Below, piece by piece: positions 230 through 4,662 of a DNA stretch of 52,079 nt (positions within the stretch are counted from its first letter, which is position 1; each line of letters begins with the position of its first letter). The notes under the pieces are model-generated. The model was not told the origin of the DNA and did no database searches. It saw only the letters and a list, made by a program, of their open reading frames with translations. Origin of the DNA: Anaerolinea thermophila. Lineage in GTDB: Bacteria > Chloroflexota > Anaerolineae > Anaerolineales > Villigracilaceae. The stretch is from NCBI GenBank assembly GCA_020722375.1, contig DYKX01000002.1, positions 1-52,079 on the forward strand, written 5' to 3'. The position numbers and the translations under genes were made by a program.

Positions 230-284
230 CTTCCCCCATTTGTGTTCTTCCAAATGGGGGAAGGACGGGATGGGGGTCAAGAAC
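230..284 (+). repeat. 55-bp palindromic repeat with G-rich tail, copy C
   Basis: Exact copy of 1-55; contains the TGA stop codon (277-279, minus strand) of the R-M gene. Confidence 0.95.
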
Positions 285-3078
285 CCTCCACAATCCTGAC
301 CTCATCCACCGTCAACCCATACAACTCATAGACCTTCCTGTCAATCTCCTCATCCACAGACGCGATCTTCCTCTCCAGCGAGCGGACGTGATCCAAATCA
401 TCCTCCCGCCGCACGGACTGGCGCTCCTTTTGCAGGGACAGCATCTTCTCCACCGACTTGACAATCCCATCGTGCGCGGACTTCTCGGCCGCGTTTCCAA
501 AGTCAATGCGGCGGATGGGAAGTTGCCTGCCAGTTTCGGGGTTTATTTCAATTGCCATGCCAAGCATGTTTTGCAAATACCAAGTTGCTAACTTTGAATT
601 GAGAATGCCGAGCAAATAATGTAAATCGTATCGTTGAGAAAGTTTTGCTTCTTCTTCACTAATTTTTATATCTCTATGCTTCACATTAACAAGCATATCT
701 TTGCGAACTGCCAAATCAATTGTATGGTCTGTGTATAAATGGTTGTAGTCCAAAGTCGCTTTGACCTCAGTTGCGATTCTGGCAATCATTATTTTTTCGT
801 TCTCGAAAAGTTCTCTAAATTTTGGACGATGCACTTCATTTGGCTTGTAATCCAAGAATTTCGTACTTACGGGAGGCAAATATCGCCCAATCTCTTTTGC
901 TTCGATGTATGGTTTCAACCCCTTCTTGTTTTTCGTACTTATCAATCTTTCTTTTGACTCGCCAGTTTCTGAATTATGCAATACTGCGCCAGTAATCAAA
1001 TAACACACATCGCCAAATCGAACACTCTGAGCATCAATCTTTTCAACCAATTGCAAAATACTACTATCCAGATTCAGGCGGAAAGTATTGTTCGGTGTAT
1101 CCACAAAAACTTTCTGCGGAAGATGCTTCCCGATTTCAACAATTCCCTCATCGTAAGTATCCTGCCTGATGATTGAAACTTCATGCTGAGCACGCTTTTC
1201 TGGACTCGTCTCTTTTCGCAAAACAAGAATACACGTTGCAACGCTTGCGTCAGCGAATACCTTGTAATTGGTTAAATCTACAATCGTTTCGATTACACAA
1301 TTATCCAAAATAAACTTCCGTAGCATGAGAGCATAGTTTTGAGTAAATCCCGCGTACGGAATAATAAAGCCCAATCGTCCACCTTCTTTGAGCAATTTGA
1401 TTGCACGTTCAAGGAACAAAATGAAAATGTCAAATCTTCCATAGGCTGTTTCAAACGCGCCCGACATATAGTAATCGCGTTCTTCGCGCGGCATATTTTC
1501 AGCGCGCACATACGGCGGGTTTCCAATGATGACATCGAACCCCCACCCGGCCTCCCCCAAATCCGACTGGGGTTCGTCGGATTTGGGGGAGGTGCCGAAG
1601 GCGGAGGGGGTAAAAGTTTCAGGCCGCAAACTATCGCCATGCTGAATATTTTCCAGCATCGGCAGTTTCTCGCGGCTGTGCAAGGCGCGCAACAACAAAT
1701 TCAAGCGCGCCACATCCACGGCCTGCTGATCTTTGTCCACACCGAAGATGCAGTTCTGCAAAACTTCCAGTTGTCGGGCGCGGTCGAACACTGATAACTG
1801 ATTACTGCTCACTGATGACTGATTTCTCGAATTCATCACATACTTGTCAATCACATCGAAGGCTTCGATCAAAAACGACCCCGACCCGCAAGCCATATCC
1901 AGCACGCGCGGCGGGTGCGGATGATAGCCATGTTCATCCAGATAGCGCCCGACGGTCTGTTGAACAATGTATTTGGTCACAAAACTCGGCGTGTAATAAA
2001 TCCCCTGCGACTTGCGCTTTTTGCGGCGCGCCTCCACCGTCAGGCCTTCTTCGGGATTCAATCTGTCCCGTTTGGCGGTCTTTGTCTCTTGCGGCTGGTC
2101 GGTCACCACCGCGCCGAGATACTGCTCGTACACCGTCCCCAACACATCTGCGTCCATCGCATTGAAGTTATAGCGGATGAAGTTGCGCTCGTACAAACCA
2201 GTGATGACTTCCTCGATCACGCTCGGCGTCACGTAAAACCCTTCCGACGAATGTGGCGCGAACAATTCCGAGTTATACACGCCGTCCATTTCGCGGAACA
2301 GCGCCGCAAGCCCCTTCGACAAATCCTTGATCTGCCCTTTATCCTTCATCTCGCGGATCAACGCCAGCAGGCGCGGCGACTCAACGTCGCGGTCTTCCGC
2401 CGTGCGGATGAAGATCAAACGGTTCAGCATCCGCAGGACGGCGTTATCCGCCTCCGCCGTCGAGATCGAATTGAATCCCGTCAAATCTTTGGACAGTTTC
2501 CCGCGCCACGTCTTCAAATCGTCGAACAGAATCTGGCTGACGGGCTGGCGCTTGTCCTTCTTCCCGACCTTCTCCGCCTCCGCATCCAACCGACGTTGAG
2601 CGGTCTCTGCACGAGAGAGCCACCACAAGCGATTGAAGTCGCCCAGATACGTATCCACGTTGAACTCGATGAACTGCGCGCGGAACGGATTCTCTTCCTT
2701 CCATTCGGCGTTGAACACCCTCAGGCCCTCGAAGTCCGAGAGCAAAGCCCATGTCACCGATTTTGTCCACGAATAATCAATCGCCTGCTTCACCCAACGG
2801 GGATCGTTCAAATCTTCGGAGGCGCGCTTGGTTTCAAGGAAATAGCGCGGCACATTCCCGATGCGGAACGAAAAATCCACCCAGCCGCGCGACACCTTCT
2901 CTTCGGGGCTGACTTCGTTGTGGTTCTCGATGTCCCAACCCAGCGCGCGGAACATCGGCAGAATAAAGCCCAGCCGCGTCGCGTCCTCGTTCATGCCCTT
3001 GCGTTGAGCGCCCGACATCGCCTTGAACTTCTTCACGAGCCTGTCAATTTCGGTATAAGCAGTTTCTTGATCCGTCAT
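277..3078 (-). CDS. Type IIG restriction-modification enzyme (Eco57I-like N6-adenine DNA methylase/endonuclease)
   Basis: N-terminal PD-ExK-like VDFSF...FLETK, motif I VLDMACGSGSFLIEA, motif IV NPPYV; 933 aa. Confidence 0.88.
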   Translation of the reverse strand: MTDQETAYTEIDRLVKKFKAMSGAQRKGMNEDATRLGFILPMFRALGWDIENHNEVSPEEKVSRGWVDFSFRIGNVPRYFLETKRASEDLNDPRWVKQAIDYSWTKSVTWALLSDFEGLRVFNAEWKEENPFRAQFIEFNVDTYLGDFNRLWWLSRAETAQRRLDAEAEKVGKKDKRQPVSQILFDDLKTWRGKLSKDLTGFNSISTAEADNAVLRMLNRLIFIRTAEDRDVESPRLLALIREMKDKGQIKDLSKGLAALFREMDGVYNSELFAPHSSEGFYVTPSVIEEVITGLYERNFIRYNFNAMDADVLGTVYEQYLGAVVTDQPQETKTAKRDRLNPEEGLTVEARRKKRKSQGIYYTPSFVTKYIVQQTVGRYLDEHGYHPHPPRVLDMACGSGSFLIEAFDVIDKYVMNSRNQSSVSSNQLSVFDRARQLEVLQNCIFGVDKDQQAVDVARLNLLLRALHSREKLPMLENIQHGDSLRPETFTPSAFGTSPKSDEPQSDLGEAGWGFDVIIGNPPYVRAENMPREERDYYMSGAFETAYGRFDIFILFLERAIKLLKEGGRLGFIIPYAGFTQNYALMLRKFILDNCVIETIVDLTNYKVFADASVATCILVLRKETSPEKRAQHEVSIIRQDTYDEGIVEIGKHLPQKVFVDTPNNTFRLNLDSSILQLVEKIDAQSVRFGDVCYLITGAVLHNSETGESKERLISTKNKKGLKPYIEAKEIGRYLPPVSTKFLDYKPNEVHRPKFRELFENEKIMIARIATEVKATLDYNHLYTDHTIDLAVRKDMLVNVKHRDIKISEEEAKLSQRYDLHYLLGILNSKLATWYLQNMLGMAIEINPETGRQLPIRRIDFGNAAEKSAHDGIVKSVEKMLSLQKERQSVRREDDLDHVRSLERKIASVDEEIDRKVYELYGLTVDEVRIVEGS
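1541..1594 (-). repeat. In-frame palindromic repeat inside the R-M gene
   Basis: CCTCCCCCAAATCCGAC-TGGGGTTC-GTCGGATTTGGGGGAGG perfect 17-bp arms, with GGCCGGGTGGGGG-type tail on minus strand; same architecture as the repeats at 1-284. Confidence 0.85.
1790..1824 (-). repeat. Degenerate heptamer tandem repeat (ACTGATN)x5 inside the R-M gene
   Basis: ACTGATA ACTGATT ACTGCTC ACTGATG ACTGATT; encodes the QSSVSSNQLSV stretch on minus strand. Confidence 0.85.
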
Positions 3079-3173: not shown

Positions 3174-3210
3174 CCAAGTGACAGTCACCTGCCAGGCGAC
3201 TGTCACTTGG
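3174..3210. repeat. REP-like palindrome R1
   Basis: CCAAGTGACAGTCACCTG-C-CAGGCGACTGTCACTTGG, 18-bp arms, one mismatch; overlaps the transposase stop codon. Confidence 0.9.
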
Positions 3211-3814
3211 TTGGAATCTGCTTCTCCATTTCCTCCAAATACTTCTTTACATCGTCGGGCAATTGGCGGGACTTCAAATATTCGTGAACGAACAACTGGT
3301 AGTCTTTTGGGGTGGCGAAGTAGCGTTCGATGAATTCGCGGTCCACCAGTTTGCCGTCTCGTTTGCCAATCCATTCAAGGTAATGGGAATACGGCCAATC
3401 GGCGGGGTCGGCGATCAAGCCATCTTTCACGGGATTTGCATGAATGTAACGGCAAAGATGGAGCAGATGAGAGAGGGATTTAATGGGCTTTGCGCGGAAA
3501 CGCCCCTCAAAAAGTGTCCCGCTTTGGCCGTATCGTTTATTGTAGGCTTTTGTATAACTGTTGAAAACGGATTGCGGCACAATTCCCGCAGGTACGTCCC
3601 CGTCCTGGCGGCAAAGAAAATGATAATGATTGGGTTCCAGGCAATAAGCGATCATGGTGATATCGTTTGCCTGACTGTACTCCTTGATTTTTCGTATCAC
3701 CATCAGATAGTTTGTTGGTTCGCGGAAAATCGTTAATCGCCGCGCGCCACGGTTGTAAATGTGGTAATACAATCCCGCTTGCCAGACCAGTGTGTCCTTC
3801 CGCGCTTGTGGCAT
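3203..3814 (-). CDS. REP-associated / IS200-like Y1 tyrosine transposase (RAYT-like)
   Basis: GLYYHIYNRGARR...MIAYCLEPNHYHFLCRQ...VFNSYTKAYNKRYGQSGTLFEGRFRAKPI...YIHANPV...DWPYSH; start chosen at MPQARKD because the upstream ORF extension is translated repeat. Confidence 0.9.
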   Translation of the reverse strand: MPQARKDTLVWQAGLYYHIYNRGARRLTIFREPTNYLMVIRKIKEYSQANDITMIAYCLEPNHYHFLCRQDGDVPAGIVPQSVFNSYTKAYNKRYGQSGTLFEGRFRAKPIKSLSHLLHLCRYIHANPVKDGLIADPADWPYSHYLEWIGKRDGKLVDREFIERYFATPKDYQLFVHEYLKSRQLPDDVKKYLEEMEKQIPTK

Positions 3815-3828
3815 GTTGTCCTCCTGTG

Positions 3829-3872
3829 GCGCAAAGTGACAGTCACTTTCGGAAGTGACTGTCACTTTGCGC
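3829..3872. repeat. REP-like palindrome R2
   Basis: GCGCAAAGTGACAGTCACTTTC/GGAAGTGACTGTCACTTTGCGC, 22-bp arms, one mismatch. Confidence 0.92.
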
Positions 3873-3933
3873 TTTCGAAATCCTTCGGCGTGAGCAGCAT
3901 GTATCTTTTCCCTTTGCCTGATTTTACACGAAT

Positions 3934-3966
3934 AAGTGACTGTCATCTGCAAGATGACAGTCACTT
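3934..3966. repeat. REP-like palindrome R3
   Basis: AAGTGACTGTCATCTG-C-AAGATGACAGTCACTT; contains the stop codon of the Mut7-C gene. Confidence 0.9.
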
Positions 3967-4662
3967 CGCCACCTCCTCAATCACCTTCTGCATCCTCTCA
4001 TAATGCGACCCCTTCCAATACACCTGTCCACAGGCGGGACAGAGGTGGAATTCATCGAAGTATTTCTTCGTCAGCGGTTCGAGGCGGTCGAGGATCGCGG
4101 ACTTGTCCACTGGCTCCAACGGATGGTTGCAGCGCAGGCAGCGATGAAAGGGGTGAAACTTATCCGCCAAATTAAAGCGCTGGATGACCTCCGTCAGTTG
4201 TTCGAGCGGTTCGAGCGAGCGCAGGCAATAGCCGTGCTGGACCACTTTTCGCATCAGCAGGCGGCGGTCGCGGGTCAGGAGGATGCGTCCCTCCCGCTGT
4301 AATATTTCCGCCATCTGCGTATCTTCGTAGTCGTTTTGGTACAGGCAATCGAATCCCAACATACGCAGGTGCGCGGTCAGGCGTCCGAGGTGACAATCGA
4401 GCAGAAAGCGCGGCTCGACCGTACAGCCGTCTTCGATGGGATGGATTTCGACACGATCCCCGTCCTGCGCGATTCTCCCCAACGTCTCATCACCGCCATT
4501 GACTTGAATCCGCCCGATCTCGGGATGCGGCACTCCGAGCGATTCCGCCAGGTGCTTGATGGATTGCCGTCCCCGAAAATGGACGACGATCTCACGGTCT
4601 CTTTGATGCCGTTGCAGAAAATCGTTCAAACGGCCGCGAAATACAAAATGCGCCGCGCTCAT
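3961..4662 (-). CDS. Mut7-C RNase domain protein with N-terminal ubiquitin-like Mut7-C domain
   Basis: LLDCHLGRLTAHLRMLGFDCLYQNDYED...REGRILLTRDRRLL and CLRCNHPLEP...CPACGQVYWKGSHYERM. Confidence 0.85.
   Translation of the reverse strand: MSAAHFVFRGRLNDFLQRHQRDREIVVHFRGRQSIKHLAESLGVPHPEIGRIQVNGGDETLGRIAQDGDRVEIHPIEDGCTVEPRFLLDCHLGRLTAHLRMLGFDCLYQNDYEDTQMAEILQREGRILLTRDRRLLMRKVVQHGYCLRSLEPLEQLTEVIQRFNLADKFHPFHRCLRCNHPLEPVDKSAILDRLEPLTKKYFDEFHLCPACGQVYWKGSHYERMQKVIEEVAK

Follow-up and report, generated by a model that had tools for sequence, protein, structure and literature searches.

How a long, perfect palindrome came to be translated within an enzyme gene, directly before a catalytic motif, and whether the enzyme has any use for it, are the questions raised by this locus. 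The window (the whole 52,079-nt stretch of Anaerolinea thermophila DNA that was analyzed) carries the gene, which encodes a restriction-modification (R-M) enzyme, near its beginning. An earlier note, made from the sequence alone, had proposed that a mobile palindrome was domesticated there as a peptide insert beside the active site.

The R-M gene and its palindromic insert

The features in and around the gene were as follows.

1–55, unstranded: repeat related to the palindrome, lying downstream of the R-M gene and identical in sequence to 230–284 (R1 model, E = 0.016); the contig begins in the repeat
129–172, unstranded: related palindromic repeat in opposite orientation (inverted pairs I1/I2, 82% complementary to 3–46 and 232–275)
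230–284, unstranded: related palindromic repeat, the edge of which overlaps the R-M stop codon at 277–279 (R1 model, E = 0.012)
277–3078, minus strand: type IIG-like R-M enzyme, 933 aa, with an HSDR_N-like N-terminus, an Eco57I/N6-MTase core and a TaqI_C-type specificity domain
1510–1521, minus strand: catalytic NPPY motif, intact, residues 520–523, at the C-terminus of strand beta-4 (514–519 in the model)
1540–1611, minus strand: site B insert, 72 nt or 24 codons, residues 490–513, peptide TPSAFGTSPKSDEPQSDLGEAGWG; one copy of a structured palindromic element
1540–1548, minus strand: 3′ outer box GGGTGGGGG, partner of the 5′ box in the consensus fold
1551–1567, unstranded: main palindrome, 17-bp arm paired with 1576–1592
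1576–1592, unstranded: main palindrome, 17-bp arm paired with 1551–1567
1594–1602, minus strand: small hairpin GCC-TTC-GGC, helix 2 of the alignment
1603–1610, minus strand: 5′ outer box CCCCCTCC, helix 1 of the alignment
1789–1821, minus strand: site A insert, residues 420–430 (QSSVSSNQLSV), a short array of the heptamer ATCAGTN

The R-M ORF matched the Pfam families Eco57I (1.1e-37), N6_Mtase (3.6e-31) and TaqI_C (1.5e-11) and the PADLOC model REase_MTase_IIG (1.9e-107). Motif I (CGSGSF) and NPPY were both intact, and NPPY was invariant across 33 aligned homologues. The nuclease region was recognized by a sub-threshold HSDR_N match together with the conserved residues D68, E82 and K84. The solved folds nearest to the R-M model were those of CamA, BrxX/PglX, M.BseCI, BpuSI and M.TaqI, and the named relatives of the gene were Anaerolineae and Chloroflexi MAGs. 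Judged from its sequence, the ORF encodes an apparently intact single-chain type IIG enzyme with nuclease, methyltransferase and specificity regions and unbroken motifs, the product of which is probably made and active. It resembles the Eco57I/BpuSI-type type IIG enzymes in domain order and motifs, but differs from them in carrying two repeat-derived peptide inserts.

The main palindrome consisted of perfect 17-bp arms separated by an 8-nt loop, whereas no palindrome with arms of at least 17 and a loop of at most 20 arose when the window was simulated 30 times with a first-order Markov model. The insert peptide was read in frame within the 933-aa ORF and adjoined FDVIIGNPPYV directly upstream. 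Coordinates, ORF and simulations thus bore out the earlier note on this point. The palindrome proved, however, to be the main stem of a larger unit, 1540–1611, which extends beyond the segment first noted. In the window copy, 1603–1610 paired with 1540–1547 as an outer stem; in the minimum-energy fold of this copy alone, the small hairpin opened.

Fold and covariation of the element

A covariance model, R1, was seeded from five well-aligned copies, because MAFFT misaligned the copies of the element. The copies folded into three helices, formed by the outer boxes, the small hairpin and the main hairpin. Across 17 distinct aligned copies, 97.5% of the cells were standard pairs, and two-sided changes were present in 14 of the 27 pairs. 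Paired cells made up 94.8% in helix 1 (the outer stem) and 98.4% in helix 2 (the small hairpin), the latter with two-sided changes in three of its five pairs. Compensatory cells numbered 57, compared with 17.6 in shuffles and 2–9 when the partners were slid; the seed copies fit R1 by construction and the model guided the alignment, but the slid controls, which keep the relatedness of the copies, gave far lower values. The covariation says that the copies were spread or maintained as hairpins, which is compatible with either DNA or RNA.

The copies began and ended in C/G runs. REP sequences have a conserved tag such as GTAG or CGTC at one end (PMC3733652); no tag of this type was found where the aligned copies begin or end, and none was constant in their flanks. 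At the Rfam gathering score, the insert region remained below threshold and the only match in the window was a tRNA gene (RF00005, 6317–6387, minus strand). The excess of stop-free frames was considered as a special coding adaptation and rejected: 5.2 of six frames were open, compared with 4.8 in shuffled copies and 3.9 in windows taken at random, and such closeness to the shuffle level means that the openness mostly reflects base composition.

Copies in the genome and in the family

The genome that contains the window (2.95 Mb, 88.9% complete) was surveyed by pattern and covariance-model searches. The pattern CCCCCAAAT..ATTTGGGGG was present at four places and CCCCCATTT..AAATGGGGG at 18 places, whereas the reversed control patterns had no matches. 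R1 recognized 19 distinct places at E ≤ 0.01, and the copies were 55–76 nt long. BLAST of each R-M insert against other places on its own contigs gave few matches, and the covariance searches were needed to find the copies. The insert itself (1540–1610, minus strand) matched R1 with E = 1.8e-8 in the whole-genome search. The site B insert is thus one member of a palindromic repeat family dispersed in the genome, as had been supposed when it was called a mobile palindrome inserted as a peptide. The proposed match to the repeats at 1–284 holds at the level of the family but not more closely, R1 giving E = 3.2e-9 for the insert compared with 0.012 for 221–274 and 0.016 for 1–45.

Of the approximately 19 copies, 11 were read in frame within ORFs and had coding-like flanks, and 10 of these 11 belonged to recognizable families: RimO, RdgB, isopentenyl phosphate kinase, MocA, TlyA, a glycosyltransferase, a ThyX-like protein, the R-M enzyme and two xanthine dehydrogenase-type genes, both with the copy at one and the same position. 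Against the solved RimO, RdgB and TlyA, the element appeared as an alignment gap.

In the bacterial family, 102 of 152 genomes had an R1 match at E ≤ 1e-6. At 24 of the 29 loci read, one of the 24 being marginal, the copy lay inside an ORF whose codon scores were positive to its left and right. This fraction is no census, since the loci are the top matches of their respective genomes, drawn from those that scored highest. Two xanthine dehydrogenase-type genes of one genome (L127 and L132) had the element at the identical position. The relatives L155, L164, L165 and L175 likewise carried it there, in both orientations.

Repeats at two loops of the R-M homologues

Among the 33 aligned homologues, the native loop B resembled W..xFPEVMKDGGFDVIIGNPPY. 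The insert was absent from most homologues, and by comparison with them the window element seems to replace approximately 11 native residues, with no clean insertion. The conservation in distant homologues that the earlier note had named as counting against its reading was looked for and not found: homologues of approximately 30–63% identity either lacked the segment or carried a different repeat. Other G-rich repeats occupied loop B in L016, L070/L096 and L092. At L018 (2670–3350, G298), a tandem repeat array at loop B shifted the frame, and this homologue is probably a broken gene.

Loop A contained palindromic or G-rich repeats in L013, L016, L017, L018, L065, L067, L070/L096, L092, L094 and L102, the remaining state among the homologues being a short native loop. 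In the congeneric L013 (G272), the window's element type was at A and B was empty. On a tree built without the columns of either loop, the state changed at least eight times at site A and at least three times at site B. A scan of close homologues found no further recurrent repeat sites in the R-M enzyme; one repeat was observed between NSLI and FNW in L100. The heptamer pattern ATCAGTN had 112 matches genome-wide, compared with none for the control. Arrays of this heptamer were common in the window's genome, and one of them was translated in the R-M enzyme.

TlyA as an independent case

The loop of TlyA between LLPVxxxW and ALIKPQFEA was 5–11 aa long in 20 of 88 orthologues and 12–37 aa long in the other 68. 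Its fillings belonged to at least five repeat types; 33 of the 68 folded much better than shuffles (z < −3), and others look decayed. No insert of 9 aa or more was found elsewhere in TlyA among the 88 proteins. The TlyA tree required at least 15 changes of presence and roughly 45 changes of type, the latter figure being approximate because types were assigned by hand-written patterns, of which at least one assignment was wrong (the R1-type filling of G272 was labelled FPLSSF). Some short loops look like scars left by deletion from a filled loop, such as GKWKVES in G356 compared with KWFAHFPLSTLEGNGKWKVES in G202. In the TlyA genes L176 (G000) and L177 (G311), the element was present in opposite orientations, with nearly identical flanks and at almost the same base pair. 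The opposite orientations suggest an in-place inversion or a precise reinsertion.

Predicted structure of the loops

The AlphaFold model of the R-M enzyme (33 sequences) had a mean pLDDT of 84.7, with values below 50 at residues 61–65, 327–358, 422–427 and 497–510. The third of these segments lies within insert A (420–430) and the fourth within insert B (490–513), so that both inserts are predicted to be disordered, although a thin alignment would likewise lower the confidence in such segments. In the model, loop A lies between helices 401–417 and 430–442, and insert B between a short helix and strand 514–519, with NPPY next after the strand. In TlyA, the sole segment with pLDDT < 50 was 169–184, between helix 154–165 and strand 187–192.

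The earlier note had suggested a structure prediction to see whether the insert is a surface loop, and the model returned a floppy loop, predicted to be disordered, between helix and strand. The description "beside an active site" was right for the linear sequence but is not supported by the predicted fold, in which the insert leads into the N-terminus of strand beta-4 whereas NPPY follows from the C-terminus. In Rossmann-like methyltransferases, the two ends of such strands lie at opposite edges of the sheet, and helix-to-strand loops of this kind are on the edge opposite the active site.

Origin of the inserts

We consider it likely that mobile palindromes and other repeats enter genes frequently and that selection filters them to permissive in-frame surface loops. 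The element would be a short mobile palindrome (approximately 55–76 nt), the single strand of which, DNA or RNA, would fold to a three-way junction, and it would have spread through the bacterial family. Both the window-type element and several unrelated repeat types would enter genes often, and selection would purge nearly all insertions save in-frame, stop-free ones in permissive surface loops, the permissive site typically running from the end of a helix to the start of a beta-strand. A surviving insert would be a disordered, functionally near-neutral peptide, which may later decay, be deleted in frame or be replaced by another repeat. In the window R-M gene, the outcome would be the heptamer array in loop A and the palindrome in loop B. 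The analysis shows the element and its covarying fold, the in-frame copies in several conserved genes, the lack of the insert in most homologues and the recurrent filling of the same loops, and it predicts disorder; we infer both the neutrality of the inserts and the combination of frequent insertion with a selective filter. Insertion was not observed in the act, and the comparison yielded no target-site duplication, there being no clean empty site among close relatives and the native loop residues having been replaced, and no parental transposon was identified for the element.

If the peptide had instead been kept because it tunes how the enzyme binds DNA, admits its cofactor or is regulated, as the word "domesticated" had implied, its position next to motif IV in the sequence and the intact ORF and catalytic motifs would fit. 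However, the peptide was kept by no homologue; the orthologous loops hold short native sequence or unrelated repeats and are a site of turnover; residues 497–510 have pLDDT < 50, in line with predicted disorder; and the pattern recurs in unrelated enzymes, all of which makes a retained function very improbable. The recurrence of inserts could also reflect targeting, without any filter on loops, by machinery that recognizes a DNA sequence or structure. Such a hotspot would account for the oppositely oriented copies that share nearly one base-pair position in the TlyA congeners G000 and G311 and for the confinement of all inserts of at least 9 aa in 88 TlyA proteins to one place, but one element-specific target would not explain unrelated types in one loop, and at least five unrelated types occur in the TlyA loop, whereas the heptamer array and palindromes both use R-M loop A. 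The flanks in different host genes also had no obvious common motif by eye, and we regard targeting as unlikely.

A single site shared across several genera (TlyA, xanthine dehydrogenase and the kinase) in both orientations, with matching peptide ends (T/APL..EGG), would be expected of one old, vertically inherited insertion, the part of which between the outer C/G boxes flipped in place and which later diverged, with no repeated insertion. This scenario fails for unrelated repeat types at one loop and for close relatives with filled and empty loops, and the R-M element type occupied different loops in two congeneric genomes; we judge it improbable. A native low-complexity loop with palindromic codons arisen by chance, and no repeat insertion at all, would be consistent with the variability of the loops and with nothing further. 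The covariation, the copy number and the zero controls speak against it, the genome-wide copies already refute it, and we give it practically no credence.

Copies that occupy one site in both orientations and have matching outer boxes could have arisen by separate insertions or by inversion in place. It is conceivable, if rather doubtful, that certain protein loops in this bacterial family are shared landing pads for many unrelated mobile repeats, at which an element-independent process inserts, and even flips, hairpin repeats in place. Were this true, conserved enzymes of bacteria other than intracellular symbionts would gain new loop sequence rapidly and largely through repeat insertion.

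Comparison with known repeat systems

Rickettsia palindromic elements (RPE) and the protein-coding palindromic repeats of Wolbachia lie in frame in conserved genes and also between genes, and a guanylate kinase bearing an RPE is still active (PMC2229807, PMC10969869). The Rickettsia analogy drawn in the earlier note was apt, the window element being likewise a long stem-loop, or palindromic repeat, in frame in conserved protein genes. It differs in length (approximately 55–76 nt, compared with 105–146 bp for RPE; PMC2229807), in its G+C-rich three-way junction, in its host (Anaerolineae-type Chloroflexota rather than obligate intracellular alphaproteobacteria) and in that several repeat types, unrelated to each other, recur in one and the same loop. 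By analogy, the element appears to work like RPE yet to form a separate family; the comparison is by description, and RPE membership is not claimed.

MITEs and the enterobacterial RU/ERIC repeats also have in-frame intragenic copies (Delihas 2007, as cited in PMC2229807). Like them, the element belongs with the non-autonomous inverted repeats of which some are fused in frame to genes, and its outer stem corresponds to the terminal inverted repeats of MITEs; unlike in MITEs and RU/ERIC, more than half of the copies of the window element in its own genome lie inside genes.

In the papers found, protein-coding palindromes are mainly those of Rickettsia and Wolbachia (PMC2229807, PMC10969869). No report of such palindromes in Chloroflexota was found within the open-licence papers. 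The Chloroflexota pattern is dense, with extra, mostly repeat-derived sequence in the TlyA loop of 68 of 88 orthologues. Small populations are a ready explanation for the palindromes of Rickettsia and Wolbachia, and Chloroflexota are, to our knowledge, not known as intracellular. Because nature offers many variants of a single enzyme, in which the loop is empty, filled, inverted or decayed, neutrality, movement and loop growth are directly testable. The pattern is also a warning that "inserts" of metagenomic proteins may be repeats and not adaptations.

The resemblance to REP/RAYT systems lies in the dispersal of short palindromes in the genome and in a Y1 transposase gene that adjoins the R-M gene. 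A Y1 transposase was considered as the mover but found no support, the genome's three Y1 genes having no R1-type palindrome within approximately 1.5 kb (in an assembly that is 88.9% complete). Unlike in REP/RAYT systems, R1 flanks no Y1 gene, and the palindrome that does so, GTGACAGTCAC..GTGACTGTCAC, is of another family. The Y1 gene in the window (IS200-like/RAYT-type, 3203–3964, minus strand) was accompanied by palindromes at 3174–3210, 3828–3873 and 3933–3967, and exact copies of the Y1-flanking palindrome were present at 21 places in the genome.
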